64,000 nt of DNA, taken from assembly GCF_900114925.1 (NCBI RefSeq), contig NZ_FOUR01000010.1, forward strand, positions 1 through 64,000. Reading direction: 5' to 3'. The position numbers and the translations under genes were made by a program. Below the pieces are notes generated by a model. The model did no database searches, was not told where the DNA came from, and saw only the letters and a list, made by a program, of their open reading frames with translations. Positions 23,853 through 39,996 of this stretch are shown one piece after another (the first letter of the stretch is position 1; every line of letters begins with the position of its first letter). This stretch comes from Marinobacter pelagius (lineage in GTDB: Bacteria; Pseudomonadota; Gammaproteobacteria; Pseudomonadales; Oleiphilaceae).

Positions 23853-23958
23853 GAGAGGCGGGTACTGCGATTCAGAACACGCTACGAGCACATCCCTGTG
23901 CGCTTGTTTCGGGCCGTCCCTGGCCCTCAACAGTTCTGAATCGCAGTACCCGCCTCTC
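23853..23958. repeat. Conserved-core/variable-arm element, copy 1 (terminator-like)
   Basis: A 26-bp perfect inverted repeat (23853-23878 with 23933-23958) encloses a 54-nt core (23879-23932). The core is in reverse orientation relative to copies 2 and 3 and matches them at 48 of 54 positions. The right arm is directly followed by seven T residues, so on the plus strand the whole structure works as a very long intrinsic terminator for aceEF. The arms share no sequence with the arms of the other copies. Confidence 0.85.
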
Positions 23959-24014
23959 TTTTTTTGTCTCCGAGTTATCCCAGCTTTATTCATACGCAGG
24001 GGGTAGAATGCTCC

Positions 24015-24180
24015 GGGGTCAGAAGAACGCCTTCTTCTGACCCCTTCTTGGACTGATCCCCAAAGCTCGAACGCTCAGGGGTCTGAAGAACACTTTCTTC
24101 TGACCCCTTCTTGGACTAACCCCCAAAGCTTTGGCGCTGACCTCCAAAACGGGGTCAGATGAAGGTTTTCATCAGACCCC
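24015..24180. repeat. REP-like palindromes, cluster F (3 copies)
   Basis: Units at 24015-24044 (GAAGAA, symmetric), 24078-24107 (GAAGAA, reverse) and 24151-24180 (GATGAA, forward) lie between aceF and the convergent porin gene. The spacers between the first units share CTTCTTGGACT and CCCCAAAGCT, showing that the repeat plus its flank was duplicated together. Confidence 0.88.
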
Positions 24181-24276
24181 TGATCTGCCTCAGGCTCCAG
24201 AGTTAGCTCGGGAATGTCGGAGCTGGGCAAGGTGGAGGAGCGAGGCAAAACCTGTTGCTCTCCCACAAACGAAAAA

Positions 24277-24296
24277 GCCCCGGCAAATGCCGGGGC
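24277..24296 (-). terminator. Intrinsic terminator of the porin gene
   Basis: On the minus strand, GCCCCGGCA pairs with TGCCGGGGC around a 2-nt loop and is followed by TTTTT (24276-24272). It lies about 30 bp beyond the porin stop codon. Confidence 0.9.
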
Positions 24297-24326
24297 CTTT
24301 CCGAGTTAACTTCTAAAAAGGAAGGA

Positions 24327-25463
24327 TTAGAAGTTGTACTGTGCTGCGAACATCAGGCGGTTAGCGTCAGCTGATTCGCCGGCAACGGTTTCCTGATCGA
24401 AGTAACCGTATTCAACGCCCATCATGACGTTTTGAACCGGTGTCCACATGTAGTTGACGAACAGGTTCTGGTTGGTTTCCGGATCTGCATCAGTTGTTGC
24501 GCCTGCAGCAATTGCATCGTCCAGGTCCAGAGTAGTCATGCCATATGCTACGTTGATGCTGCTGCCGCCGCCCAGTGCCATGCTAACGCCGATGTTACCG
24601 CCATAGCCTTCGATGGTTTCTACGCTATCGCCATCGATGTAGGCGCTTGGGCCATAGTAGTTAGAGCCGGAGCGCCACAGGTAGCCGGTGGCTCCATCGG
24701 TGTAGTTGATTGCACCCTGAACAGAGAACATGTCGCTCAGTTTCAGTTTGGCGCTAGCTGCAGCTGAGAAGCCGATAGCGCTGTCATCGTTCACGCCATC
24801 ATCGGCTGTGACCTGGCTGGCCGAAGCAGAGGCTGCATAGGAGAAAGCGTCAACCGAATCTTCGATGCGTGCAGTGAAGGCGGGAGCTGAGGTGCGAGTG
24901 TTGCCGCCAGCGGCCAGTACTGCTTGAGAGCTCGGATCTTCAATGGCGAAGGACATTGGCCCAGTGGTGTAACGGATCTGCTCGGTACGATCCCAGCTGC
25001 CGTGGCTACCAGCAATACCATCAAAGTCGAGTGTCGGGGTAGAGCCTACGAAGCTGATTGTGTTGGACCATGTACGGCCAGCCAAAAAGCCCTGATAGGT
25101 ACCGTAGGCGTGACGCATACGCAGGCTGCCTGCGCTGTTGCCGGCACCACGGAAATCGCCCTCAATGTTAACCATTACGCCAGAGGCGTGGTTTACTTTC
25201 ACGCCGATACGGCTTTGTTGTACATCCGCACCGAAGTGGCCATCAATCTCTTCGTTGGCTGGAGTAAAAGAACCGGCGCGAGTGGATACTGCGCGGTTGT
25301 CATCGATATCGTAGCTCATGTTCAGACGAGCATAACCATACAGGCTAGCATCGACATCATCGCCGACGTTCAGGGTCAGAGCGCCTGCTTGTCCAGCTAC
25401 GCCCATCACCGCTACTGCTGCCGTCGCACGAATTGCCATTCTCAATTTGTTGTTGCTTTGCAT
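24327..25463 (-). CDS. DcaP-like outer-membrane porin
   Basis: The start at 25463 (MQSNNKLRMAIRATAAVAVM) is chosen because a signal peptide begins there and GGAGA lies upstream; the frame is open to 25529. The mature protein of about 355 residues opens VDASLYGYARLNMSYD and ends in a C-terminal Phe (FAAQYNF), as expected of a trimeric outer-membrane barrel in the DcaP-like group. Alternating hydrophobic strands fill the rest. Substrates are probably small anionic or dicarboxylic compounds by family, but this is not certain. A strong terminator follows the gene. Confidence 0.85.
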   Translation of the reverse strand: MQSNNKLRMAIRATAAVAVMGVAGQAGALTLNVGDDVDASLYGYARLNMSYDIDDNRAVSTRAGSFTPANEEIDGHFGADVQQSRIGVKVNHASGVMVNIEGDFRGAGNSAGSLRMRHAYGTYQGFLAGRTWSNTISFVGSTPTLDFDGIAGSHGSWDRTEQIRYTTGPMSFAIEDPSSQAVLAAGGNTRTSAPAFTARIEDSVDAFSYAASASASQVTADDGVNDDSAIGFSAAASAKLKLSDMFSVQGAINYTDGATGYLWRSGSNYYGPSAYIDGDSVETIEGYGGNIGVSMALGGGSSINVAYGMTTLDLDDAIAAGATTDADPETNQNLFVNYMWTPVQNVMMGVEYGYFDQETVAGESADANRLMFAAQYNF

Positions 25464-25538
25464 CGTTGTTGTCTCCACACATTTGTTGTTGTTGGACCCA
25501 CAAACAAGGTAGTTACGAATCCATGACAATTCAAATAA

Positions 25539-25561
25539 ATTCGTCGATTATTAAGACGAAT
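25539..25561. promoter_or_regulatory. Inverted repeat upstream of the porin gene
   Basis: ATTCGTC-gattattaa-GACGAAT (7-bp arms) lies in the 160-bp region between the divergent porin and exonuclease genes. It may be an operator for either; no regulator is known. Confidence 0.4.
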
Positions 25562-25626
25562 GTCTATAGGCGGATTTCGTTGATATACAGACATCTGCGG
25601 TTGACCTTTCGTCGTAATGGTGAGCA

Positions 25627-27078
25627 ATGACCTCCCAAAGTACATACCTTACAGACAACACCTTTGCGTTTCTGGATATTGAAACCACCGGGGGCAATTC
25701 GTCCCATGACCGCATAACGGAAATCGGCATCCGGTTCTGGCGAGCCGGTGAGGTGGTCGGAGAGTGGCAGACACTGCTTAACCCCGAAACCAGGATTTCA
25801 CCATTTATTGAACGGCTTACCGGTATCAGCAATGAGATGGTGGCCGGAGCGCCGGTGTTCGGGGAGGTGGCGGATGAGCTGGAAGCGCAGTTGAAGGGTT
25901 GTGTGTTCGTGGCCCACAACGCGCGCTTTGATTACGGCTTCATTAAATCCGAGTTCCGGCGGCTGGGCCGGATGTTCTCTGCCCGGGTACTGTGCACGGT
26001 GAAACTCTCAAGAAGGCTGTATCCCGAGTTCCGGCGCCACAACATGGATGCGCTGATTGCCCGTCATGGCCTCGCGCAGGTGCAGCGGCACCGGGCCATG
26101 GGAGATGTGTCCGCGATGCTGGCGTTTTTCGAGCATGCCCGGAACGAGCATGGCGCCGAACCCATGGAGAACGCCATCCGGGAGTTGCTGCAAAAGCCCA
26201 GCGTGCCCTCGAACCTGCCGCCGGGCATCATGGATGAGTTGCCCCGTGTGCCGGGTGTGTATCGGTTCTATGGTGAGAACGATGTGCTGCTCTACGTGGG
26301 CAAAAGCACCAATATTGCCCAGCGGGTCGCTTCCCACTTTTCCGGGGATCACAACTCCAGCCGCGGCGTGCGGATGTCGGAAAGCCTGCGGCGTGTGGAG
26401 TGGACGGAGACCGCCGGAGAGTTAGGGGCACTACTGCTCGAGCTGAAGCAGATCAAGGCCCTCAAACCCATGTTCAACCGTCGCTCCCGGGCGGCGAAGA
26501 ACCTGGTCAGCATCGAGCTGACAACCAACGAATCCGGCTACCTGCAGGCCCGGCTGGTGCGGGAGATCGAACCACATAGGCTTGGGGGCTATTTCGGACT
26601 GTTTCGCAGCAAGCGGGATGCGGAACGGGCACTCAGCGGCATCGCGGCCAAGAACGAGCTGTGCAATCAGCTGCTGGGCCTGGAGCCCGAGCACGAAGGC
26701 GCCTGCTTCCAGCGCACCCTCGGCCGGTGCAAGGGCGCCTGTGAAGGGGAAGAGGATGTCGTTCGCTACAACCTGCGGACGCAGATCGCCTTCCACGGCC
26801 TGCGCCTGACAACCTGGCCCTGGCAGGGGCCGGTCGGCATTGTCGAGCGTAACGAGAAAACCGGGCGGACGGACATCCTGGTGGTCTACAACTGGATACA
26901 CGTCGCCACTGTTCACCACGAAGACGAACTGCACGACCTCTCCCTGCGCGGTCAGTCAGTGACCTTTGATCTCGATTCGTACAAACTGCTGGTCAAGACA
27001 CTTCTCGGACGTGGCAGCAAGCCCCCGCGCCTGATCGAACTGCCGTCCACCGGCACACCGGATGTTCTTATGCCCTGA
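25627..27078 (+). CDS. DEDDh exonuclease fused to GIY-YIG nuclease
   Basis: This 483-residue protein joins two nucleases. Residues 1-175 are a DnaQ-like 3'-5' exonuclease with FLDIETTG (Asp17, Glu19), AHNARFDYGF and a late HRAMGD, giving the DEDDh set. Residues about 205-290 are a GIY-YIG domain (PGVYRFYGENDVLLYVGKST), as in UvrC and Cho. The C-terminal part resembles the region after GIY-YIG in such fusions, with several Cys (ELCNQ, GACFQRTLGRCKGACEG). The layout suggests incision followed by trimming in DNA repair, but that is inference. It stands alone between the porin gene and the AST genes. Confidence 0.85.
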   Translation: MTSQSTYLTDNTFAFLDIETTGGNSSHDRITEIGIRFWRAGEVVGEWQTLLNPETRISPFIERLTGISNEMVAGAPVFGEVADELEAQLKGCVFVAHNARFDYGFIKSEFRRLGRMFSARVLCTVKLSRRLYPEFRRHNMDALIARHGLAQVQRHRAMGDVSAMLAFFEHARNEHGAEPMENAIRELLQKPSVPSNLPPGIMDELPRVPGVYRFYGENDVLLYVGKSTNIAQRVASHFSGDHNSSRGVRMSESLRRVEWTETAGELGALLLELKQIKALKPMFNRRSRAAKNLVSIELTTNESGYLQARLVREIEPHRLGGYFGLFRSKRDAERALSGIAAKNELCNQLLGLEPEHEGACFQRTLGRCKGACEGEEDVVRYNLRTQIAFHGLRLTTWPWQGPVGIVERNEKTGRTDILVVYNWIHVATVHHEDELHDLSLRGQSVTFDLDSYKLLVKTLLGRGSKPPRLIELPSTGTPDVLMP

Positions 27079-27172
27079 GTGGCGTATTATGGAACGGTCC
27101 GCATTCGTACCTAGTGCGAATCTGAAACATTGCCTGCTATGTTAAAGGTTTAGATCCCGCTGAGAGAGATTT

Positions 27173-28387
27173 ATGAACAAAGAGCCCGTTTCCCGCGAAC
27201 TGTTTGATGAAGTCATGGTGCCCAACTACGCCCCCGGAAGCATCATCCCGGTGCGCGGTGAAGGCTCTCGCATCTGGGACCAGGAAGGTCGGGAGTTCGT
27301 GGATCTCCAGGGTGGTATCGCCGTAACCTGCCTCGGCCACTCCCACCCCGGGCTCATCGGCGCACTCCAGGAACAGGCCGAGAAAATCTGGCACCTGTCC
27401 AACGTCATGACCAACGAACCGGCCTTGCGCCTGGCCAAGACCCTGTGCGACCTCACCTTCGCCGAACGTGTATTCTTCGCCAACTCCGGCGGCGAAGCCA
27501 ACGAAGCCGCCTTCAAACTGGCCCGTCGCTATGGGTGGGAACACTTCGGTCCGGAGAAGAACGAAATCATCTCGTTCACCAACTCCTTCCACGGCCGCAC
27601 CCTGTTCACCGTCAGCGTCGGTGGCCAGCCCAAGTACCTCGAAGGCTTCGAACCGGCTCCGGGCGGCATTCACCACGCCGAGTACAACAACCTCGACTCC
27701 GTGAAGGCCCTGATCTCCAAAGAGAAAACCTGCGCCGTCGTGGTTGAACCGATCCAGGGCGAAGGCGGCGTCATGCCCGCCGATCCCGAATTCCTCAAAG
27801 GTTTGCGCAAGTTGTGCGACGAAAACGACGCCCTGCTGGTCTTCGACGAAGTCCAGACCGGCGTCGGCCGTACCGGTCACCTGTACGCCTACGAAATGTA
27901 CGACGTCGTCCCGGACATCCTCTCCAGCGCCAAGGGCCTCGGCGGCGGCTTCCCGGTAGCGGCCATGCTCACCACCGCCAAAATCGCCGCCAGCCTCGGC
28001 GTCGGCACCCACGGCAGCACCTACGGCGGCAACGCTCTGGCCTGCGCCGTGGCCCAGAAAGTCGTCGACACCATCAGCCAGCCGGAAATCCTCAAGGGCG
28101 TCAAAGCCCGCTCCGACAAACTCCGCAAGGGCATGATGGACATCGGCGAGCGTTACGGCATCTTCAGCGAAGTCCGCGGTGCTGGCCTGTTGCTGGGCTG
28201 TGTACTGACCGAGAAATGGCAGGGCAAGGCCAAGGATTTCCTGAATGCCGGTCTCGATGAAGGTGTGATGGTACTGGTCGCCGGCGGAAACGTTGTCCGC
28301 CTGGCGCCGTCACTGATCATCCCGGATCAGGACATCGAAGAAGCGCTAGAGCGCTTCGAAAGAGCAGTTGAGAAGTTGACGGCATAA
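27173..28387 (+). CDS. aruC: Succinylornithine/acetylornithine aminotransferase
   Basis: This 404-residue class III PLP aminotransferase has the cofactor lysine in [25 protein letters not shown] for phosphate binding, and [11 protein letters not shown]. Its place at the head of aruFG-astD-astB makes it the succinylornithine transaminase of the AST pathway (AstC/AruC), although such enzymes often also serve arginine biosynthesis as ArgD. A GAGAGA site precedes the ATG. A 54-nt-core repeat element (copy 2) sits between this gene and aruF. Confidence 0.94.
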
Positions 28388-28407
28388 TGACCAAGTAGGC
28401 CGGAGCT

Positions 28408-28499
28408 CGGTTCCCCACGCCGGGAATGTTGAAGGCCAGGGAAGGCCTGAAACAAGCGCACATGGACGTGCTCGTAGCGGTTCCCGGCGTGGGGAACCG
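28408..28499. repeat. Conserved-core/variable-arm element, copy 2
   Basis: A perfect 19-bp inverted repeat (28408-28426 with 28481-28499) encloses the 54-nt core (28427-28480). Weaker complementarity continues outward, with GGCCGG on the left and CCGGCC on the right. It is intercistronic, between aruC and aruF, and no T-run follows, so it is not a plain terminator here. The core differs from copy 3 at one position. Confidence 0.85.
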
Positions 28500-28550
28500 G
28501 GCTTGGGCCGGCCGGACAACTCCGATACAAGTAAGTAACAGGAAGCAACT

Positions 28551-29570
28551 ATGTGGCTAGTCCGTCCGGCAACCCCAGCTGACCTGGAACCGATCCTGGA
28601 AATCGCAGGCACCCAGGGCGCCAGACTGTCCTCGACACTCCCGAAACAGCAGGAAGCCCTGGCCAACAAAATCCGCCACTCCCAGGACTCCTTCGCCGGC
28701 AAAACCAGCGACGAAGAAGAACCCCCAAGATTCCTCTTCGTCCTCGAAAACACCGAAACCGGCGAAATCCTCGGCACCGCAGGCATCGACGCCCGCGCCG
28801 GCAACGGCCAGCCGTTCTACAACTACCGACGCGACGCCCTCATCCACGCCTCCCACGAACTGGGCGTCTCCCGGCGAGTTGAAGTTCTGTACCCCAGCCA
28901 CGGCCTGACCGACCAGAGCCTGCTCTGCTCCTTCGCCATCAAACCCGAACTGCGAACCACCGACGCCTTCGAACTGCTCTCCCGGGCCCGTCTGCTGTTC
29001 ATCGCCGAACACCGCGAATGGTTCAGCAACCGAATGGTCGTCGAGATCCAGGGCGTCCAGGAAGACGATGGCAGCGTGCCCTTCTGGGACAGCCTCGGGC
29101 GGCACTTCTTCAACATGGATTTCCAGACCGCCGACCAGTATTCGGGAACCCTCAGCAAGACCTTCATCGCCGAACTGATGCCGCCGAACCCCATCTACGT
29201 CACCCTGCTCAGCACCAAAGCACAGGACGCCATGGGCCAGGCCCATAAACTGACCGTGCCCAACCTGGAACTGCTGCAACGGGAGGGATTCCAGGCCGGC
29301 TGCTACCTCGATATCTTCGACGCCGGCCCGGTGCTCGAGGCCCGCACCGACAGCCTGCGAACACTGGTCACCAGCGATCGCAAGGAATTGCATGCCAGCC
29401 ACGAGGACGCCGGGGAAAACTGCCTCATCGCCGCCGGGGAGGGCGCGGATTTCCGTTGCGCCCTGACCCCGGTCGCGGTCACCCTCGAAGGAAAAGTACA
29501 GGTTCCGGTTCGCACCTGGCAGCTGCTTAACAAGAGCGCCGGCGACACCGTAAGGATCGCGCCGCTATGA
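28551..29570 (+). CDS. aruF: Arginine N-succinyltransferase, alpha subunit
   Basis: This 339-residue protein of the AstA/AruF family opens MWLVRPATPADLEPILEIAG and carries SSTLPKQQEALANKI, FYNYRRDALIHASHELGV and FIAELMPPNPIYVTLL. With AruG it forms the succinyltransferase that starts arginine and ornithine breakdown (arginine + succinyl-CoA). AGGAAG precedes the start. aruG follows 28 bp later. Confidence 0.95.
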   Translation: MWLVRPATPADLEPILEIAGTQGARLSSTLPKQQEALANKIRHSQDSFAGKTSDEEEPPRFLFVLENTETGEILGTAGIDARAGNGQPFYNYRRDALIHASHELGVSRRVEVLYPSHGLTDQSLLCSFAIKPELRTTDAFELLSRARLLFIAEHREWFSNRMVVEIQGVQEDDGSVPFWDSLGRHFFNMDFQTADQYSGTLSKTFIAELMPPNPIYVTLLSTKAQDAMGQAHKLTVPNLELLQREGFQAGCYLDIFDAGPVLEARTDSLRTLVTSDRKELHASHEDAGENCLIAAGEGADFRCALTPVAVTLEGKVQVPVRTWQLLNKSAGDTVRIAPL

Positions 29571-29598
29571 ATCGGAATCGCAAACAGGAGGCCCGGCC

Positions 29599-30732
29599 AT
29601 GCTGGTAATCCGGCCACTGCAGGAAAACGACCTCGACGATCTCTACACCATGGCGCTCAATGCCGGTAAGGGCCTGACCACCCTGCCTGCCGATCGCGAG
29701 TTGCTGCAACGCAAGATCAATCATGCCCGGGAAACTTTCAACCAGCGTTGCGCGCCGGAAGCCGGGTTATACCTGTTCGCTCTGCAGGACATTGCCACCG
29801 GCAAGGCCGTGGGCATCAGCGGAATCCAGGCCCGGGTCGGGTTGGACGAGGTGTTCTACAATTACCGGCTGAGCCTCACCGTCAACGCATCGAAAGAGCT
29901 TGGCGTGCATGTGCGAACGCCCACCCTGCAACTGTCCAACGACATGACCGACACCAGTGAGATCTGCTCGCTGTTGCTGTCGGATGATTACAAGGGCGGC
30001 GGCAACGGGCTGCTGCTGTCCCGTTGCCGGTTCATGTACCTGGACGAGTTCCGCAAGCACTTCTCCGAGAAGGTCTTTGCCGAAATGCGCGGGGTGTCCG
30101 ACCGGAACGGGCAGAGCCCGCTCTGGGATGCGTTGGGGGCCAAGTTCTTCGACATGGAATTCAGCGAGGCGGACAAGCTCTCCGGGCTCGGCAACAAGTC
30201 GTTCATCGCCGAACTGATGCCCAAGTACCCCATCTATGTGCCGATGTTGCCGGACTCGGCGCGGGCGGTTATCGGCCGGGTGCACGAGAATACCGTGCCG
30301 GCGCTGAAGATGCTCCAGGCCGAGGGCTTCAACTTCAACGGCCTGGTGGACATCTTCGATGGCGGCCCGGTGGTGGAAGCGTTTGTGCACAATATCCGCA
30401 CCATTCGCGAGAGTGTGAACCGCTATGTCCTGGTCACCAGTAAGCCCATGAGTCTGGAGGCGCCGCCGGCGGAGCGGGTAATGGTTTCAAACCGTTCCTT
30501 CCGGGACTTCCGGGTGACCACGATGCCGGCGAAGTACATCGGCCCCGAGACTGTCCGGATGCCGCCGGAAGTGGCAGAGGCGTTACAGGTGCAGTCCGGG
30601 GATTCGGTGCGCCTGGCGCCCTTGAAAGAAGGCGGTTTCTGGCCCATTCATTCCCATAGGGAAAGCGAAAATACTGATGAACTATCCCAGAGCAGGATCA
30701 AGAAGTACCGTAGCCATTCATCGTGGGACTGA
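29599..30732 (+). CDS. aruG: Arginine N-succinyltransferase, beta subunit
   Basis: This 377-residue paralogue of AruF opens MLVIRPLQENDLDDLYTMAL. It shares FYNYRLSLTVNASKELGVHV, LWDALGAKFFDMEFSEADKL and FIAELMPKYPIYVPML. The C-terminal tail (about the last 30 residues) runs past the normal family end and is rich in Ser, Arg and Glu, so it may be a recent extension. AGGAGG lies 7 nt ahead of the ATG. Confidence 0.94.
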   Translation: MLVIRPLQENDLDDLYTMALNAGKGLTTLPADRELLQRKINHARETFNQRCAPEAGLYLFALQDIATGKAVGISGIQARVGLDEVFYNYRLSLTVNASKELGVHVRTPTLQLSNDMTDTSEICSLLLSDDYKGGGNGLLLSRCRFMYLDEFRKHFSEKVFAEMRGVSDRNGQSPLWDALGAKFFDMEFSEADKLSGLGNKSFIAELMPKYPIYVPMLPDSARAVIGRVHENTVPALKMLQAEGFNFNGLVDIFDGGPVVEAFVHNIRTIRESVNRYVLVTSKPMSLEAPPAERVMVSNRSFRDFRVTTMPAKYIGPETVRMPPEVAEALQVQSGDSVRLAPLKEGGFWPIHSHRESENTDELSQSRIKKYRSHSSWD

Positions 30733-32250
<1,518 letters not shown>

Positions 32251-32275
32251 TGACTGACGGAAGCGGAAGCAAAGT

Positions 32276-33616
32276 ATGAGCCAACACGCGGTGGAAGCAA
32301 ACTTTGATGGCCTGGTGGGACCCACGCACAACTACGCCGGGTTGTCCTGGGGCAATGTCGCCTCCAAGTCCAATGTGAGATCTGTCTCCAATCCGAAGGA
32401 AGCGGCACTCCAGGGTCTGGCGAAGATGAAGCGGCTGGCCGACCGGGGCTATGTGCAGGGCGTCCTGCCACCCCACGAGCGGCCGCACCTTCCAACCCTG
32501 CGGGCGCTCGGGTTCGCGGGCTCCGATGGGGACATTCTCAAGAAAGTCGCGGCCGAAGCGCCAGCACTCCTGGCGGCCGTTTCCTCCGCATCGCCCATGT
32601 GGACTGCAAACGCCGCAACGGTCTCACCCAGTGCCGATACCGCCGATCACCGGGTGCACTTCACGCCCGCGAACCTGAGCGCCAAGTTCCACCGGTCCAT
32701 CGAACATGAGGTGACCGGCCGCGCCCTGAAGGCCATCTTCACCGACGAGAGCTACTTCGCCCACCACCCGGCGTTGCCGTCGGTCAGCCATTTCGGGGAC
32801 GAAGGCGCGGCCAATCACACCCGGCTGTGCAGCGGTTATGGCGAGCCCGGCGTGGAGCTGTTTGTGTATGGCCAGATTGCCTTCAATGAAGATGCCCCGG
32901 CCCCGGTGAAATACCCGGCCCGGCAGACTCTGGAAGCGTCACAGGCGATTGCCCGTTTGCACGGTCTGAGGGACCGGAACCTGGTATTTGCCCAGCAGAA
33001 CCCGGCGGCTATCGATGCCGGGGTGTTCCACAATGACGTCATCGCTGTGGGCAATGGCAACACCCTGTTCTACCACGAGCTGGCTTTCCTGGACGAGGAT
33101 CGGGTGCTGGCGGATGTCCGTTCCCGACTCTCCGGGGCGGAGCTTGAAGCGGTTCGCGTCAGCAGCGCCGAGGTGCCCCTCGAGGATGCGGTCGCCTCCT
33201 ACCTGTTCAACAGCCAGCTGCTCAATACGCCTGATGGCATGTTGCTGGCGGTCCCCGGAGAATGCCGGGAGATCCCCTCGGTCAGCCGGTACCTGGATAG
33301 CCTGGTAGCTTCCGGCGGCCCGATCACCTCGGTGGAGGTCTTTGATGTCAAACAGTCCATGCGCAATGGCGGTGGTCCGGCCTGTCTGAGACTGCGGGTG
33401 GTGCTGACCGACGATGAACTCAAGGCGATCAATCGGGGCGTGATCCTCACAGACCAGTTGTACGAGCGGTTGACGACCTGGGTGGAGGCGCACTACCGGG
33501 ATGAACTGTCCCAGGAGGATCTGGGCGATCCCATGCTGCTGGAGGAAGTGCGCAAGGCGCTGGATGAGCTCACCGGTATCCTGGGGCTCGGCTCGATCTA
33601 CGACTTCCAGCTTTGA
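32276..33616 (+). CDS. astB: N-succinylarginine dihydrolase
   Basis: This 446-residue protein of the amidinotransferase fold opens with [19 protein letters not shown] and has [10 protein letters not shown] and [14 protein letters not shown], the usual AstB landmarks with the catalytic Cys near the end (PACLRL). It turns succinylarginine into succinylornithine, ammonia and carbon dioxide. It is the last gene of this plus-strand run; astE lies 5 kb away on the other strand. Confidence 0.95.
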
Positions 33617-33626
33617 GTTTTTAGTC

Positions 33627-34262
33627 TCACGCGCTGATCGATGAGGTCAGCATGTCCATGGTGTGCCGGATGAGGGTGTCGGCGGAGAAATCGCTGGTGC
33701 CCTCGGCCATCTCCGCCTGGCACAGCAAAATCACCCCGTGCAGGGCGCCGCGCAGGTAGAGCGCGGTCTCGATAGGATCGCGAATCCGTTCCCGGCTCAT
33801 GGTGCCATCGGCAAGCCCCTGCTCGATGGCGCCCACCATCAGCTCCATCAGCTCGTTCTTGGAACACAGCATCTCGTGGGCCTGGATTTCGTCGGCATCT
33901 GCCATGGCGGTGGAGGCCTTGGTCAGGGCCGAGAAGTAATCCGGCTCGTCCTGGTAGAACCGGTAATAGGCCTCACCCATGGCGCGGATCTGGGCCAGCC
34001 CCTTGCTTTGAGTTTTACGCGCTTCCTCGAACCGGCTCACCAGACTCTGGCCCGCCCGCAACATGATCCCTCGCTGAATGGCTGCCTTGTCCTTGAAGTA
34101 CACATACAGCAGGGCCCGGCTCAGGCTGGCGGTACGGGCGATGTCATCCATCGAGGTCTTGTCATACCCCTTCTCTGAAAACACCAGTTCCGCGGCGTCC
34201 AGAATGGCGTCGTAACGGGCCTGTTTTTCGCGTTCGCGGCGGGATTTCAGTGGTTCACTCAT
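33627..34262 (-). CDS. TetR-family regulator of the RND pump
   Basis: 211 residues with an N-terminal TetR helix-turn-helix (AILDAAELVFSEKGYDKTSM then LSRALLYVYFKDKAAI) and a divergent ligand domain. The frame is open further upstream, but MSEPLKSRREREKQARYDAI is the natural start. It is divergent from a membrane-fusion/RND gene pair, and the 163-bp gap holds TTGACA-att-TGTCAA, a likely operator for both directions. Repression of the pump is inferred from layout. Confidence 0.87.
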   Translation of the reverse strand: MSEPLKSRREREKQARYDAILDAAELVFSEKGYDKTSMDDIARTASLSRALLYVYFKDKAAIQRGIMLRAGQSLVSRFEEARKTQSKGLAQIRAMGEAYYRFYQDEPDYFSALTKASTAMADADEIQAHEMLCSKNELMELMVGAIEQGLADGTMSRERIRDPIETALYLRGALHGVILLCQAEMAEGTSDFSADTLIRHTMDMLTSSISA

Positions 34263-34324
34263 GGGGCGTTCCGGTTGGTTCAAACAGCAGGTCATGATAC
34301 CTGAAACCCGATAAAAACCGATTA

Positions 34325-34355
34325 TTGACAATTTGTCAAAGAATGACATGATGTC
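34325..34355. promoter_or_regulatory. Candidate TetR operator region
   Basis: TTGACA-att-TGTCAA (34325-34339) is a perfect inverted repeat, closely followed by GACAT-g-ATGTC. Both lie between the TetR gene and the efflux genes, where a repressor controlling both sides would bind. Confidence 0.6.
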
Positions 34356-34425
34356 TGAAAACTGGGTGGGGTAATCCACGGATGCGATTGCTCCTATCCG
34401 AAGGCAGGGATGGAAGGATCGGTTT

Positions 34426-35508
34426 ATGAAAATGCATCGACTTGGCGCAGCGATGGTTCCCGTTGCGCTGTTCTCACTGTTGCTGGCGGGCTGCAAGGCC
34501 GGCGATGTGTCGCCGGAAGCCAAACCCGCGGCGGTTTCCGTCCGTGTTGCAGAGGTATCCGGCGGGCTCGAAGAGGAGCTGCCCCTGCGGTTCTCCGGTA
34601 TCGTTCAGGCGGCGCAGCGCGCGACCCTGACCTTCCAGGTCAGCGGTACTCTAAGGGAACGGTCCGTTGAGCTGGGTGAAAGCGTGAAGGCCGGGGACGT
34701 GCTGGCTCGCGTCTATAATCCCGCCCTGGAACCGGCCACCGATTCGGCCCGTGCCCGGCTGGAAGAGCTGGTGACTCAGTACCAACAGGCGGCACGGGAG
34801 TGGGAACGTTCCAGCCGCCTGCATGAACGGGGCGTGGTCTCGGAACAGGCGCTGGAACAGCTCGCCGCCCGGCGGGACGGCCTGAAAGCCAGTGTCGCCA
34901 CGGCCGAGGCCTCCCTGGCGGAAGCAATACGGTTGCTGGAAGAGAGCACCCTGAAGGCGCCTTTCGGCGGCCGGATCGAGGCGTTACTGGTGGAGAAAGA
35001 CGAGTTTGTGGCGGCCGGCCAGCCGGTCATGCGGTTGTCCTCTTCCAATGGCCGGGAAGTGGAAGTGCGGGTGCCAGCTTATCTGCTGGACCACGTGAGC
35101 CTCGGGCAAACGTTACCGGTGTGGGCGGTCCATGACCGGAATCTGGCTGCGGTGACAGGATCGGTGGTCGAGATTGCCCAGGGCAGTGCGATCAGGGGTG
35201 AACTCCACCCGATACTGGTCAGCCTGCCGGAAGCGTCCCTGGAGCCGGGGCAGCCGGTGGAAGTGGGTATCACCCCAGCCAGCGTCCCGGCAATGACAGT
35301 GCCCCTGTTATCAGTCCTCCGGGATCCCGGTGGTACCACTGTATTCCGGGTGCGCGATGACCGGGCCGATCGCATTCCGGTGCAGGTCCAGCGCATTGTC
35401 GGCGAGCAGGTGGCGGTGCGCTCCGAAGCCCTGAAGCCGGGTGACCAGGTGGTCTATGCCGGCATGACCCGGCTGGCGGACGGCGATACCGTGGAGATCC
35501 GGCGATGA
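34426..35508 (+). CDS. RND efflux periplasmic adaptor lipoprotein
   Basis: This 360-residue membrane-fusion protein has a lipobox (LLLAGC). The barrel-sandwich halves are visible (RATLTFQVSGTL...VKAGDVLARV and LKAPFGGRIEALLVEKDEFV) around a coiled-coil hairpin (about residues 100-170). It links an inner-membrane RND pump to an outer-membrane channel; no channel gene is in the window. Its stop overlaps the pump start by 4 bp (ATGA). Confidence 0.9.
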   Translation: MKMHRLGAAMVPVALFSLLLAGCKAGDVSPEAKPAAVSVRVAEVSGGLEEELPLRFSGIVQAAQRATLTFQVSGTLRERSVELGESVKAGDVLARVYNPALEPATDSARARLEELVTQYQQAAREWERSSRLHERGVVSEQALEQLAARRDGLKASVATAEASLAEAIRLLEESTLKAPFGGRIEALLVEKDEFVAAGQPVMRLSSSNGREVEVRVPAYLLDHVSLGQTLPVWAVHDRNLAAVTGSVVEIAQGSAIRGELHPILVSLPEASLEPGQPVEVGITPASVPAMTVPLLSVLRDPGGTTVFRVRDDRADRIPVQVQRIVGEQVAVRSEALKPGDQVVYAGMTRLADGDTVEIRR

Positions 35509-38500
35509 CTCGCCGGCTACTGAACGGCCAGCGCCTGCTGGGCATGGTGGTGACCATGCTGTGCCTGCTCGGGATTGCCGCCTACAGCACCATGCCCCGG
35601 CAGGAGGATCCTTCCTTTCCCTACCGGGCTGGCCTGATTACGGTGAACTATCCGGGTGCCAGTGCGGAGGCGGTGGAACGGCTGGTTCTCCAGCCCCTGG
35701 CCGATGAGCTGCGCCAGGTAGAGGAAGTCGAATTCAGCCAGGGTACGGCCCGTACCGGGGTAGCCCTGGTCAGGCTGCGGCTGGAAGATCACATTTACGA
35801 TACCGATCCGGCCTGGGACCGGGTGCGCCAGGCCATGGAACGGGCCAGGCTGGATTTCCCCGATGATGTGGGCCAGATGGCCCTGGACGACCGCCTGATT
35901 GATATCCCGGCCATTGTTCTGGCTGTCGGGGGCTCACCCTCGGTAACCGAACTCTCCGAGGTCGCCGAGCGGCTTAAACAGAATCTGGCCGATATCCCCG
36001 GTGTTTCCCGCATTGAGCTGGACGGTGACGCCGACGAGCAGATTACTCTGGCCCTGGATGATGCCGCCTTGTTCCGTCTGGGCATCTCTCCCTCCCGGGT
36101 GCTCGATACCCTGGCAAGGCGCAACCAGACCATCCCCGGCGGTTTCGTGGTGGTGGACGGCCGGCGATTGTCAGTCCTGCCCAACAGTGAATTTGCCGAT
36201 ATTGATGCCATCCGCGCCACGCCGATTGAACTGCCCGATGGCTCCCAGGTGCCGCTGGCGGCTGCGGCCGACGTCTGGCGGGGCCCCGCCGAACCGCGCC
36301 AACCCGAAACCTGGTACGACGGTGAGCGGGTGGTGCTGGTCTCCCTGATCATGGAGGAGGGCACCACCGATGCTATCCGCTTTGGTGAACAGGTGCGGGA
36401 GCGGATTGAACAATTGCGCCCGGATTTCGCCCCCTACGAAATCCGGGAAATGTTCTTCCAGCCGGACAAGGTGGAGGAACGGCTGGACAACCTGGCCTGG
36501 AGCCTGGTGCTGTCGGTCCTGATCATTGTCGGCGTGGTGTTCACCGGCATGGGTTTGCGCATGGGTTTGCTGGTCGCTTCCATCCTGCCCATGGTGGCCA
36601 TGATCAGCATCGGCCTGTACGACCTCGGCGGCGGTGTGCTGCACCAGGTGGCGGTTATCGGCATGGTGATCTCCCTGGGAATCCTGATCGACAACGCCAT
36701 CGTCATCGTGGAGAACATCCAGGGCCATCTGGACCAGGGCATGCGTCGACTCGATGCCCTGCGCAAGGCGGTAGCTGAGCTGGCCGGGCCTCTGGGCGCC
36801 TCCACCGGCACCACCCTGGCGGCGTTTGCACCCCTGTTGCTGTCCAAGGGCGGTGCGGCGGATTTTACCCGTGGCGTCCCGGTGATGATCATGCTGACGC
36901 TGTCGGTCAGCTACCTGCTGGCAATCTCGGCGGTGCCGTTGCTGGCGGCCCGGTTTCTGAAACCAAGGAAGAACGTGCACCGCGACCGGCTGATCGGCCT
37001 GGCCCGGTTCCTGGGTGGACTGGTGGCGAACAACCCGAAACGGCTGATTGCCGCCGGAACGGTGCTGGTAGCGATCAGCCTCGCGCTGACGCCGTTCACG
37101 GCCCAGCAGTTCTTCCCCAACGCCGATCGTCCCCGGGTGATTGTTGAACTCTACATGCCCGAAGGCACCGACCAGGCCCGCACCGCCGAGGCAGCCGCCC
37201 GCCTGGAACAGGCCATCCGCACCCAGCCCGACGCCCTGGAAGTTCACCGTTTCGTCGGCTTTACCGGCCCGAGTTTCTATTACAACCTCCAGCGCGCGCC
37301 CCAGGCGCCCAACCGGGCCCGGCTCGTAATTCGTACACCGACCCTGGCCGATACCACCGAGATGGTGCGCTGGGTTCGGGCCCATGCCAGTGAACAGATG
37401 CCCGAGCTGGACCTCACCGTGGGCGTGCTGGGGCAGGGGCCACCTCGCGCAGCACCGGTGGAGATCCGCATCTATCATGCCGACGATGCCAAGAGGACCG
37501 AAGCGGTTGAGCAGGTGTTCGCGACTTTGCGGCGCGTGCCGGGCACCGTGGATGTGCGCCATGATCTTGATATCGGCGTACCTAGCATTGCCATCGACGT
37601 CGATGACGCCTCCGCCGCCCGTTATGGCCTGACCCGTGCCGACGTGGCCCAGAGCCTTTATGGCCAGAGCTTCGGTGTGGTCGCCGAACGCTACCGCCAG
37701 GAAGACGATCCGATTCCGCTGGTCCTGCGATCCCGGGAAGGAACCGCGTTGCCCCTGTCGCGCCTGTTGTCCGTCAACATCTACAACAGCAATGGCGACG
37801 CGGTGCCCTTGGCGGCGGTGGCTAACGTGGAAACCAGCTGGGAACCGGCTGCCCGGTACCTCCGGGACGGTGTTCCGGTGAACACAGTCACCGCCAACCT
37901 GCTCAAAGACTACAGCTTCAGCCAGGCCCTGGACGGCCTCTATGCCGGCCTCGAAAACAACCCGTTACCCGAAGGTACGCGGATGGAAATGGGCGGCGAC
38001 GCCGAAGGCTCCGGCGATGCCAACGGCGCCCTGCTCAAAGCCGCGCCCATCGGAGTGCTGTTGCTGTTGTTCTTCCTGCTGCTGCAGTTCAACTCCTTCC
38101 GCCGGGTCGGCGTCATCCTGCTGACCGTCCCTCTTGCAGCCGTCGGTATCTTCCCCGGCCTGGTGCTATCCGGCTCGCCCTTCGGCTTCCAGTCCTTGCT
38201 GGGCGTCATCGCCCTGGTGGGCATCGTGGTCAACAACGCCATCGTCCTGCTGGACGTTATGGACCGGGAGCTGGAAAAAGGCAGCGACATCCGCGATGCC
38301 GTCCGCAGCGCGGTGGAACAACGCACCCGCCCCATCCTGCTAACCACCGCCACCACCGTCGCCGGCCTGCTGCCGCTGGCGTTCTCCAGCAGCACGCTGT
38401 GGCCGCCGATGGCCTGGGCGATTATCTCTGGCCTGCTGGCCTCGACGGTGCTCACGCTGTTGGTGGTGCCTTCGGTTTGTGTGCAGGTGATTCGGGAGAA

Positions 38501-38531
38501 AGTGCCGGAGCCGGAGAATGCGCCGGCTTGA
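35505..38531 (+). CDS. RND-family efflux permease
   Basis: This 1008-residue inner-membrane pump has the RND duplication: a TM helix, a large periplasmic loop, TM bundle, second loop and TM bundle. The TM4 motif reads GILIDNAIVIVEN, keeping the first of the two proton-relay Asp residues seen in AcrB and replacing the second with Asn, as in many heavy-metal or HAE-2-like pumps. Substrates are unknown. The last codons are copied in a 77-bp duplication just downstream. Confidence 0.92.
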   Translation: MTRRLLNGQRLLGMVVTMLCLLGIAAYSTMPRQEDPSFPYRAGLITVNYPGASAEAVERLVLQPLADELRQVEEVEFSQGTARTGVALVRLRLEDHIYDTDPAWDRVRQAMERARLDFPDDVGQMALDDRLIDIPAIVLAVGGSPSVTELSEVAERLKQNLADIPGVSRIELDGDADEQITLALDDAALFRLGISPSRVLDTLARRNQTIPGGFVVVDGRRLSVLPNSEFADIDAIRATPIELPDGSQVPLAAAADVWRGPAEPRQPETWYDGERVVLVSLIMEEGTTDAIRFGEQVRERIEQLRPDFAPYEIREMFFQPDKVEERLDNLAWSLVLSVLIIVGVVFTGMGLRMGLLVASILPMVAMISIGLYDLGGGVLHQVAVIGMVISLGILIDNAIVIVENIQGHLDQGMRRLDALRKAVAELAGPLGASTGTTLAAFAPLLLSKGGAADFTRGVPVMIMLTLSVSYLLAISAVPLLAARFLKPRKNVHRDRLIGLARFLGGLVANNPKRLIAAGTVLVAISLALTPFTAQQFFPNADRPRVIVELYMPEGTDQARTAEAAARLEQAIRTQPDALEVHRFVGFTGPSFYYNLQRAPQAPNRARLVIRTPTLADTTEMVRWVRAHASEQMPELDLTVGVLGQGPPRAAPVEIRIYHADDAKRTEAVEQVFATLRRVPGTVDVRHDLDIGVPSIAIDVDDASAARYGLTRADVAQSLYGQSFGVVAERYRQEDDPIPLVLRSREGTALPLSRLLSVNIYNSNGDAVPLAAVANVETSWEPAARYLRDGVPVNTVTANLLKDYSFSQALDGLYAGLENNPLPEGTRMEMGGDAEGSGDANGALLKAAPIGVLLLLFFLLLQFNSFRRVGVILLTVPLAAVGIFPGLVLSGSPFGFQSLLGVIALVGIVVNNAIVLLDVMDRELEKGSDIRDAVRSAVEQRTRPILLTTATTVAGLLPLAFSSSTLWPPMAWAIISGLLASTVLTLLVVPSVCVQVIREKVPEPENAPA

Positions 38532-38748
38532 GGGGATGGAGATTTGGGCTCGGGGGAGGATTAAGATGGGGTCAGAAGAAGGTTTTCTTCAGACCCCGGA
38601 GTCTGCATCAGATCCCTGGGGTTGGTTTGGCTCTCGGGACTGATTGAACTTGGGGTCAGAAGAAGGTTTTCCGCCGGCTTGAGGGGGCGGAGATTTGAGT
38701 TCGGGGGAGGATTAAGATGGGGTCAGAAGAAGGCTTTCTTCAGACCCC
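38521..38748. repeat. 77-bp direct duplication carrying the RND gene's 3' end
   Basis: Segments 38521-38597 and 38672-38748 are near-identical, with five differences that are all transitions. Each runs from the last codons and stop of the RND gene to the end of a REP palindrome. The junction falls in a truncated REP at about 38652-38670, giving a 151-bp period. This looks like a REP-linked tandem duplication. Confidence 0.85.
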
Positions 38749-38807
38749 TGGGGTGGTGGCTGGCTCCAGGGTCGGTCGGGGTCTGATGAACGCTTTCATC
38801 TGACCCC
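38568..38807. repeat. REP-like palindromes, cluster G (3 full, 1 truncated)
   Basis: Units at 38568-38597 (GAAGAA, forward), about 38652-38670 (GAAGAA, left half only), 38719-38748 (GAAGAA, forward) and 38778-38807 (GATGAA, reverse). The last unit's tail supplies the TGA stop of the minus-strand astE gene. Confidence 0.88.
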
Positions 38808-38811
38808 ATCT

Positions 38812-39864
38812 TCACCTTTCCAGGCCGCTAGCCCTGGCCCGGATCATCAGGCCAACCCGCTGCCCCACAGGCACCTCCCGGTTCGGAAACACAATCGCCT
38901 CCGGCACCGTACCCACCCGATAGCAGGTCTCCCCATCTTCCCAAATCACCGTGCCTGGTTCGTACTCGGTGAAATTGGCCACGTCGTCGGGAACATGGAA
39001 TTGGAAATTCTCGCCCGTGTTCAGTATTTCATGGACAACCTCGAAAATGGTGAGGTGACCAAGATCCCTGGATTCCGCAGGCGCAGGCTCCCCCCGAAAC
39101 CGACGCCGCAGCGCATCCCGGATACCGGCAAACCGGCCTAGATCGTTTTGCCCGAACGGTCGGACCTTCCCAAGCTCCACAGTAAAACTCTCCGCGCCCA
39201 GCTCCGAGGAAGTGAACGACGAAAACGTGGTACCCGCCTTATGCTGCAAAAGCAACGTCTCCACCTCCGCCTCCAGCAAGAAGCGACATTGCTCGACAGG
39301 CACCTCCCGCCCCTCAACAAACGGATACAGCGCAAACTTCTCCCGAAGCGAAGGGCGAATCGCGGTATGCAGATCGTAATGACTCAACGCCAACCCCGAA
39401 TGCTTTCGGGCAAACTCCCGACACAACTGTTCCAACTCCGAAGCACGGCCGGCCTCAGGCAGTCCCCGGTATTCGTCCCGGCCATGGGCCCCGGCAAACA
39501 GCCGGTTCATGTTGACGTCAATAAACCGCTCACCGGCAACCATGGCCGGGGGATTACCCAGGATCAGCAGCAGCGGGCAAGTGAGCGTCCACTCGCCGGC
39601 CAGGAGTTCGTTTACAAGCTGATTCAACACCTCAATCGGCGCTGTCTCGTTGCCATGCACTCCGGCAGAAACAATCAGGGCTTCGTGGTTGGGATTAGAA
39701 TGAGTGGCCGCCGGAGTGAGTTCCAGCACGCCGACGTTGGGCCGAACAATGTCGGTTCCGTCGGGAAGTCGGGCCAATGCTGGTGTCAGTTCGGACGAAG
39801 CGTTGGCGAGGCTATGCGCAAGCCAATCAGAAGAGGCATCAAAGAGAATCCTGAAACCTGACAT
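38812..39864 (-). CDS. astE: Succinylglutamate desuccinylase
   Basis: About 350 residues with the zinc carboxypeptidase-like AstE fold: the zinc ligands sit in SAGVHGNETAPIE, and the later His in LSHYDLHTAIRPS; Glu in FTVELGKVRPFG is the probable catalytic residue. It releases succinate and glutamate, the last AST step. The start MSGFRILFDAS at 39864 is preferred; the frame runs further upstream through a repeat element. It is inverted and separated from the other AST genes by an efflux module. The stop codon TGA lies in the tail of a REP palindrome. Confidence 0.92.
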   Translation of the reverse strand: MSGFRILFDASSDWLAHSLANASSELTPALARLPDGTDIVRPNVGVLELTPAATHSNPNHEALIVSAGVHGNETAPIEVLNQLVNELLAGEWTLTCPLLLILGNPPAMVAGERFIDVNMNRLFAGAHGRDEYRGLPEAGRASELEQLCREFARKHSGLALSHYDLHTAIRPSLREKFALYPFVEGREVPVEQCRFLLEAEVETLLLQHKAGTTFSSFTSSELGAESFTVELGKVRPFGQNDLGRFAGIRDALRRRFRGEPAPAESRDLGHLTIFEVVHEILNTGENFQFHVPDDVANFTEYEPGTVIWEDGETCYRVGTVPEAIVFPNREVPVGQRVGLMIRARASGLER

Positions 39865-39892
39865 AGCTGAATCCCCGTGATGAGTCTGGGGG

Positions 39893-39996
39893 CAGTCGGT
39901 CTGTTTCCTTCCGGGAATGTTGAAGGCCAGGGATGGCCTGAAACAAGCGCACATGGACGTGCTCGTAGCGGTTCCCGGAAGGAAACAGACCGACTG
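39893..39996. repeat. Conserved-core/variable-arm element, copy 3
   Basis: A perfect 25-bp inverted repeat (39893-39917 with 39972-39996) encloses the 54-nt core (39918-39971). It lies between the end of the artM-like gene and the start of astE, both on the minus strand, so it would sit inside any read-through transcript. No T-run follows on either strand. Only the inner TTCCCGG of the arm is shared with copy 2. Confidence 0.85.

Follow-up and report, generated by a model that had tools for sequence, protein, structure and literature searches.

A high-copy relative of TwoAYGGAY in Marinobacter: two-loop hairpins whose locus-private arms change in blocks

A 64,000-nt stretch of the Marinobacter pelagius genome (contig NZ_FOUR01000010.1, positions 1 to 64,000; hereafter the window) contains three copies of an element in which a core of exactly 54 nt is enclosed by perfect inverted repeats (arms) of 26, 19 and 25 bp (Table 1). 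These coordinates and lengths, given by an earlier reading of the letters without database searches (the sequence-only reading), were all confirmed, as was an inner CCGGGAA common to the arms of copies 2 and 3. The locus raises the question of why one core is enclosed by different self-complementary arms at each place, and with it an old question, namely how RNA stems change on both sides without a broken intermediate state. We found that the element is a divergent, high-copy relative of the RNA family TwoAYGGAY, with arms that are private to each locus and differ between species in an all-or-none manner. On balance, we lean towards a dispersed hairpin-RNA family that presents CsrA sites and whose arms are kept paired by selection together with copying of one arm onto the other.

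A high-copy family with a conserved two-hairpin fold

A query of 68 bases from copy 3, with only 7 bp of arm on each side, gave 32 strong matches (E at most 2e-11) in the genome of the window, and perfect arms of 15-31 bp were present in all 30 loci fetched after this query. A covariance model, R1, built here from 61 own-genome copies, scored 150 of 1552 candidates and retrieved 92 copies with E values of at most 4.9e-9, together with 6 further weak matches, one of which is the opposite strand of a strong match. The further core copies that the sequence-only reading had called for thus belong to a high-copy family. R1 matches copy 1 at C8:23857-23954 on the minus strand (E 7.3e-17), and no fourth copy was found in the window by the arm-based finder or the covariance model.

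The core of the window subtype (subtype B) follows the plan TGTTGAAGGCC-ANGGAY-GGCCTGAAACAAGCGCAC-ANGGAY-GTGCTCGTAGCGK. A long closing stem, formed by arms mostly of 20-30 bp, encloses two short hairpins with ANGGAY hexaloops. Hairpin 1, as read from the sequence, comprises TGTT/AACA, GA/AG, 5 bp and the hexaloop, in that order. In the three window copies, core positions 7-11 pair with 18-22, the outer pair being G-C in copy 1 but A-T in the other two, and a second small stem joins 32-35 to 42-45; both pairings had been proposed from the letters and were read again from the copy sequences. The predicted stability of the three hairpins is -57 to -73 kcal/mol on both strands.

Covariation was assessed in the 61-copy alignment. 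Changes on both sides were present in 27 of 33 pairs, and 487 both-side-changed cells were still paired, versus 125 in shuffles. The covariation score was 0.662, versus 0.151 for shuffles and at most 0.170 for slid controls. Within the outer stem, 21 of 22 pairs covary and 99.8% of cells are paired. The finder that supplied these copies demands inner arms, and no own-genome locus was lost by it. Arm complementarity and covariation, set beforehand as a test, are thus real. A second set, found without asking for arms, was derived from 197 places by dropping 33 with duplicate arms and 11 with more than 5 of 18 positions unpaired (10 with an 85-nt insert and one with a core indel). The arms were complementary here as well, 126 of the 153 copies being perfect over 18 bp. 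At least two A-N-GGA motifs are present in the core of 152 of these 153 distinct-arm copies, which were located without requiring the motif. Among 163 copies from four Marinobacter genomes, N of loop 1 is T in 78, G in 47, A in 36 and C in 2, and N of loop 2 is T in 110, G in 45, C in 6 and A in 2. The loop motif here is ANGGAY, N being any base.

Relationship to TwoAYGGAY and CsrA-binding RNAs

A scan of the window at Rfam gathering thresholds gave no match, and the sequence-only reading did not recognise the family. It is nevertheless recognisable as Rfam TwoAYGGAY (RF01731), though below the gathering score. At an E value of 10 or less, RF01731 matches the own genome 47 times, and most of the 30 matches that were read belong to a second core subtype with the same plan. 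As in TwoAYGGAY, a gammaproteobacterial family, two hairpins with AYGGAY-type hexaloops lie within a poorly conserved outer stem that encloses both. The unpaired GA/AG beside hairpin 1, read from subtype B sequences, is a further likeness; tandem GA is mentioned for TwoAYGGAY in an excerpt of the account in which the family is predicted to bind CsrA (PMC4333381). TwoAYGGAY is listed, in part of another account, as probably RNA and probably not cis-regulatory (PMC2864571). RF01731 is placed in clan CL00106, which also holds CsrC. We conclude that the element is a divergent, high-copy relative of TwoAYGGAY, differing from that family in having ANGGAY and not AYGGAY loops and, as these excerpts describe it, in its 92 strong copies, locus-private perfect arms and outward-facing pairs.

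ANGGAY-type loops are the recognition element of CsrA/RsmA. ANGGA stands in the hairpin loops of the element and a csrA gene is present once in the genome, so that presenting paired CsrA sites would most likely be its job, as a CsrA/RsmA-binding RNA. Its copies would act as many small CsrA sponges, or as hairpins within intergenic transcripts. CsrB/CsrC and RsmX/Y/Z likewise carry several GGA loops that could titrate CsrA/RsmA; those RNAs have few loci with many GGA sites each, whereas the element has two sites at each of about ninety loci. The RsmY model, the sponge model searched genome-wide, returned 16 matches in this genome, all of them weak and under the cut-off (top score 28.2 bits versus 57), and is uninformative because weak matches also occurred in 10 of 14 controls.

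Locus-private arms with almost perfect pairing

Outer-arm 15-mers are all distinct in their own genome (61 of 61), and no two non-orthologous arms agree at more than 16 of 20 positions among the 163 copies of the four genomes. In Marinobacter, the element is therefore not an ordinary mobile element with fixed ends, in line with the sequence-only reading. The arms are not fully arbitrary, because they have a consensus of their own: outward from the core, AAAA or AGGG, CC, TTTC, a hypervariable five (positions 11-15), GGG and then G-rich sequence. Ectopic gene conversion was considered as a source of new arms and rejected, there being no non-orthologous arm sharing among the 163 copies. No full-length arm donor was found in the genus search, in which 7 candidates were scored per genome and a donor could be missed; among these scored candidates from 124 genomes, the full copy-3 arms recur in two other species, in both at the orthologous locus, and nowhere else.

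Unpaired arm positions over 18 bp number 36 in the 153-copy set. Read on the ANGGA strand, 20 are G-U, 5 are A-C and 11 are others (p 0.004 for G-U versus A-C). An earlier count over 22 bp, with orthologs not merged, gave 36 G-U versus 2 A-C in a set whose finder demands perfect inner arms; the bias is weaker without that demand. The G-U excess points to selection on the folded ANGGA strand, which most simply would be an RNA binding CsrA/RsmA. The same bias could also arise if single-stranded DNA of the ANGGA strand were the selected form.

Block-wise change of the arms between species

Arm change was followed in 149 reciprocal ortholog pairs among the four genomes. The ortholog finder needs at least 9 perfect inner pairs, and subtype A is under-sampled in the three genomes that were queried with subtype B alone. 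Removal of the pairs that differ in subtype or core length leaves 128 comparable pairs; counts for the five-base block keep all 149. Over 22 bp, the number of double changes is 0 in 46 of the 128 pairs, 1-2 in 7 and at least 3 in 75, with 487 double changes versus 60 other changes overall. In block 11-15, pairs with 0 to 5 changes number 50, 8, 24, 35, 19 and 13, versus 44, 52, 34, 15, 4 and 1 in a control of five four-fold sites scaled to 149. Four-fold sites in the flanking genes differ at 0.244 (d 0.295; 29,545 sites) and arm positions 11-15 at 0.405 (d 0.583). The other arm segments differ at 0.066 (positions 0-6), 0.242 (7-10), 0.159 (16-18) and 0.259 (19-27), with d from 0.069 to 0.317.

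Thirty loci are represented in at least three species. Identical and rewritten blocks occur together at 13 of them, indicating that the two states are not simply fast versus slow loci; 4 show only 0-1 changes, and 9 are rewritten with no pair identical. In pairs with an unchanged block 11-15, the remaining arm differs at only 0.020 (positions 7-10) and 0.061 (19-27), far below the four-fold rate, which suggests function in place. The core and the inner 7 bp mostly stay while the arm middle is rewritten. Copy 3 illustrates the range: its ortholog in genome G082 has identical arms, that in G089 has one compensated change (G-C to A-T) and one T-G, and those in G117 and G043 have a rewritten mid-stem between homologous outer flank, inner arm and core.

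These data bear on whether RNA selection alone could suffice, with stems drifting by ordinary compensatory mutation through wobble intermediates and no special DNA process. The excess of G-U over A-C among mismatches and single compensated steps such as that of G089 are expected under such drift. However, the changes are all-or-none and not graded, as judged against the five-site control. Transversions, which cannot pass through G-U, account for 272 of the 487 double changes (56%), compared with 3942 of 7205 (55%) at four-fold sites, and positions 11-15 change at about twice the four-fold rate though each change needs two sites. The all-or-none double changes and the neutral transversion share indicate that the arms are not mainly changed by stepwise wobble, and selection on the RNA without any further process is unlikely.

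Copying of one arm onto the other would account for such a pattern. What matters in the stem would be mainly its shape and, to a small degree, its sequence, which leaves arms free to differ from locus to locus. Perfect pairing would be kept by selection on the folded ANGGA strand and by DNA-level copying between arms, through template switching during replication or quasipalindrome correction; since one arm is copied onto the other, changes would reach both sides at once, in blocks. Template switching between arms is our favoured, unproven mechanism, and allelic exchange and whole-element turnover compete with it or contribute. The sequence-only reading had offered two origins for the arms. 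Fold-back synthesis comes close to this mechanism, whereas insertion of the core into the loop of a pre-existing hairpin does not agree with the arms having their own consensus, nor with rewriting of the arm middle around a constant core and inner 7 bp. The suggested comparison with orthologous loci that lack the core also gave no pre-existing hairpin: among the 30 best-scoring astC-astA loci of the genus, the element is present at 16 (with an extra module at 4 of these), a third core subtype beside a more distant gene at 3 and a remnant at one, and only 9-23 nt separate the genes at the other 10.

Template switching has been proposed to create and maintain RNA stems with multibase compensatory changes, and the strongest evidence given there for stem maintenance by this route is called circumstantial (PMC8794818). 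The stems treated there resemble the element in their perfect pairing, simultaneous multibase compensatory changes and occasional loop inversion; they come from rRNA and microRNA genes, whereas the element offers many copies per genome, comparable at orthologous loci in many species. With about ninety orthologous-site copies per genome, many species, a nearby neutral yardstick and an all-or-none signal, this family lets the question of stem change be tested directly. What sets the family apart is its copy number, the outward-facing pairs and, most of all, stems that are rewritten in blocks yet remain perfectly paired. A more far-reaching picture, which we put forward tentatively, is that about a hundred two-site CsrA hairpins per genome form a distributed sponge or chromosome-wide landing array, with stems block-rewritten by template switching and a mid-stem changing above the synonymous rate. 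Were that picture correct, nature would offer replicated proof that RNA stems evolve chiefly through DNA-level copying between arms and not through stepwise wobble compensation.

Evidence against arm copying and CsrA binding, and competing explanations

Several observations count against an RNA family with copied arms. Concerning the RNA, none of the 47 own-genome matches to RF01731 reaches its gathering cut-off of 43 bits (best 41.3), and loop 2 is interrupted by an 85-nt module in 10 further copies. Orientation to neighbouring genes is random in the 61 copies (left gene 34 plus and 27 minus; right gene 30 plus and 31 minus), and sigma-70-like promoters are not in excess upstream (1 of 61 at a score of at least 9); neither points to a route by which the ANGGA strand would be transcribed at many loci. 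Concerning the arms, multi-mismatch intermediates are nearly absent, with at least 3 non-Watson-Crick pairs in 1 of 163 and 2 of 153 copies, and the ortholog finder missed 6 loci with a mismatch near the core, so that single-sided changes are somewhat undercounted. Template switching explains the agreement of the arms and is not by itself an explanation of the origin of a wholly new block. In rewritten pairs (at least 3 changes in positions 11-15), the core difference is 0.050 versus 0.015, and the adjoining 30-80 bp have identities of 0.743 and 0.770 versus 0.820 and 0.865; some events thus reach beyond the stem. Whole-element turnover is evident in the 21 of 149 ortholog pairs that differ in subtype or core length, and 2 orthologous sites have an inverted element versus 143 in the same orientation. 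Finally, one genome of another family, G190, has 16 places with a near-identical core in a repeated unit, and the 14 that were printed share their arms.

The greater divergence of the core and adjoining 30-80 bp in rewritten pairs would fit allelic replacement, in which old arm alleles, several per locus, are exchanged between species through homologous recombination. The blocks also act as discrete alleles, and species splits conflict between loci (G000 and G093 versus G043 and G117 at C15:277557; G000 and G117 versus G043 and G093 at C6:505227). Nevertheless, gene flanks 150-400 bp away are equally similar in unchanged and rewritten pairs (identity 0.930 versus 0.929), and both copy 3 and C11:381804, compared with G043, differ mainly in mid-stem with homologous adjoining flank. 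As the origin of new alleles is also left unexplained, we regard replacement as rather unlikely to be the main source of the pattern. The explanations considered here are not all mutually exclusive, and our degrees of confidence in them do not sum to one.

Mobility is the main competing theme. The element could be a mobile palindromic DNA repeat, similar to repetitive extragenic palindromes (REP/REPIN) or miniature inverted-repeat transposable elements (MITE), that acts as folded single-stranded DNA, the ANGGA loops serving a transposase or being incidental. REP/REPIN sequences are short, dispersed intergenic palindromes, often in inverted pairs, and the element is likewise short, dispersed, palindromic and paired: none of 61 own-genome copies lies inside a gene called by a simple codon-usage script, and orientation to genes is random. 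Neighbour pairs closer than 600 bp number 15, versus 1.7 expected, among 96 matches; all 15 face outwards with gaps of 62-183 bp, as REPIN pairs do. Some are of mixed subtypes, 12 consist of two strong matches, and pairs lie on C6, C7, C9, C11, C12, C14 and C16. Subtype switches and flips at some loci, and a G-U bias that also fits single-stranded DNA of the ANGGA strand, agree with a DNA repeat. The amplification in G190 is what a mobile repeat would give; one of the 14 arm sets there departs from the others by one base, and at 2 of 16 places the core is inverted with respect to its flanks. Against such a repeat, the element has arms that differ at every locus, with no sharing between non-orthologous copies in the four Marinobacter genomes, and a conserved two-loop core inside. 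Shared ends, usual for REP/REPIN or MITE, were found only in G190. The full copy-3 arms, among the scored candidates of the 124 genomes, stay at one orthologous locus, arms with an unchanged block change far below four-fold sites, as if functioning in place, and no tag common to all subtypes was seen. A mobile DNA repeat is therefore doubtful as a full account, and we retain an RNA family with copied arms as the preferred reading.

Spacer inversion in Marinobacter was examined separately and rejected. Of 123 apparent inverted pairs, 2 remained after filtering, and the unfiltered rows that were inspected were partners of outward pairs. The 2 filtered sites have different core and arms and thus look like turnover, not simple flips.

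The repeated unit in G190 is about 220-340 bp long (L247-L260), and the core of both L247 copies is inverted with respect to the flanks. In other genera, four outward pairs with comparable gaps were seen.

The hairpins are very stable and intergenic, and copy 1 has a T-run on one strand, features that would suit a role between genes as intrinsic terminators or insulators. A TTTT in the 12 nt that follow the arm, however, occurs in 0 of 61 copies on the ANGGA strand and in 1 of 61 (copy 1) on the other, and a conserved two-loop core has no role in a terminator; this explanation is very improbable. In the 61 copies, the sequence 30-110 bp to the right of the core, downstream on the ANGGA strand, is T-poor (0.15-0.18) and A/C-rich, unlike the upstream flank.

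Distribution

The DNA query matches 111 of 124 Marinobacter genomes, own included, and 77 of the 80 records listed for the exact core pattern in named genomes are Marinobacter. At E 1e-5, R1 matches 41 of 274 class genomes, the window's among them, and these represent 36 of 222 genera. RF01731 matches 24 of 369 class genomes at E 1e-3 and exceeds its cut-off in 15 of 369, all of other genera. These scans are lower bounds that differ in samples and limits, with 15 candidates scored per genome for R1 and 7 for RF01731. The distribution suggests a scattered, putative CsrA-binding system in gammaproteobacteria that may have been hidden in Marinobacter by the Rfam cut-off. No published account of the Marinobacter family was found by title or abstract opening. 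Viral contigs gave 0 exact matches to one pattern. The exact core pattern also occurs at L285, L290 and L338 in metagenome bins labelled Rhodopirellula and Halomonas, which may be mis-binned Marinobacter contigs.

The window copies and minor features

Table 1. Element copies in the window, their neighbours, and loci with the 85-nt module
Feature	Position	Strand	Description
Copy 1	23853..23958	-	arms 23853-23878 and 23933-23958, 26 bp
Copy 1 core	23879..23932	-	subtype B, T-ending: TGTTGAGGGCC-AGGGAC-GGCCCGAAACAAGCGCAC-AGGGAT-GTGCTCGTAGCGT
Copy 1 hexaloops	23916-23921, 23892-23897	-	ANGGAY
Copy 2	28408..28499	+	arms 28408-28426 and 28481-28499, 19 bp
Copy 2 core	28427..28480	+	subtype B, G-ending
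Copy 2 hexaloops	28438-28443, 28462-28467	+	AGGGAA, ATGGAC
Aminotransferase gene	27173-28387	+	neighbour of copy 2
astA	28551-29570	+	neighbour of copy 2
Copy 3	39893..39996	+	arms 39893-39917 and 39972-39996, 25 bp
Copy 3 core	39918..39971	+	subtype B, G-ending
Copy 3 hexaloops	39929-39934, 39953-39958	+	AGGGAT, ATGGAC
astE (called)	39777-38812	-	neighbour of copy 3, which is antisense to it
Permease-domain gene	40761-40039	-	neighbour of copy 3, which is antisense to it
85-nt module loci			L083, L107, L125, L137-L139, L143 (two), L144, L146, L153, L166, L196, L199, L202; also L203; some overlap

The arginine-related setting given for copies 2 and 3 needs correction: copy 2 is flanked by a class-III aminotransferase gene and astA, and copy 3 by astE and a gene with an ABC-permease domain (PF00528). 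The T-run noted after copy 1 exists (23959-23965); it follows the antisense strand, since the ANGGA strand of copy 1 is the minus strand. With this run, the antisense strand of copy 1 would provide the upstream 2-oxoacid dehydrogenase acyltransferase gene with a hairpin resembling a terminator.

The structured module of about 85 nt is found in several species inside hairpin 2, after ACANGG, a position that the search pattern required, and it breaks the second ANGGA loop. Four of its loci were scanned against Rfam without a convincing match. A third core subtype with its own long arms was observed at L206, L209 and L211, appearing as CTTCAAAAACAGGGACGTTTTTGAAGAGCCTACATGGACGTATTCACGGCGT in L206.

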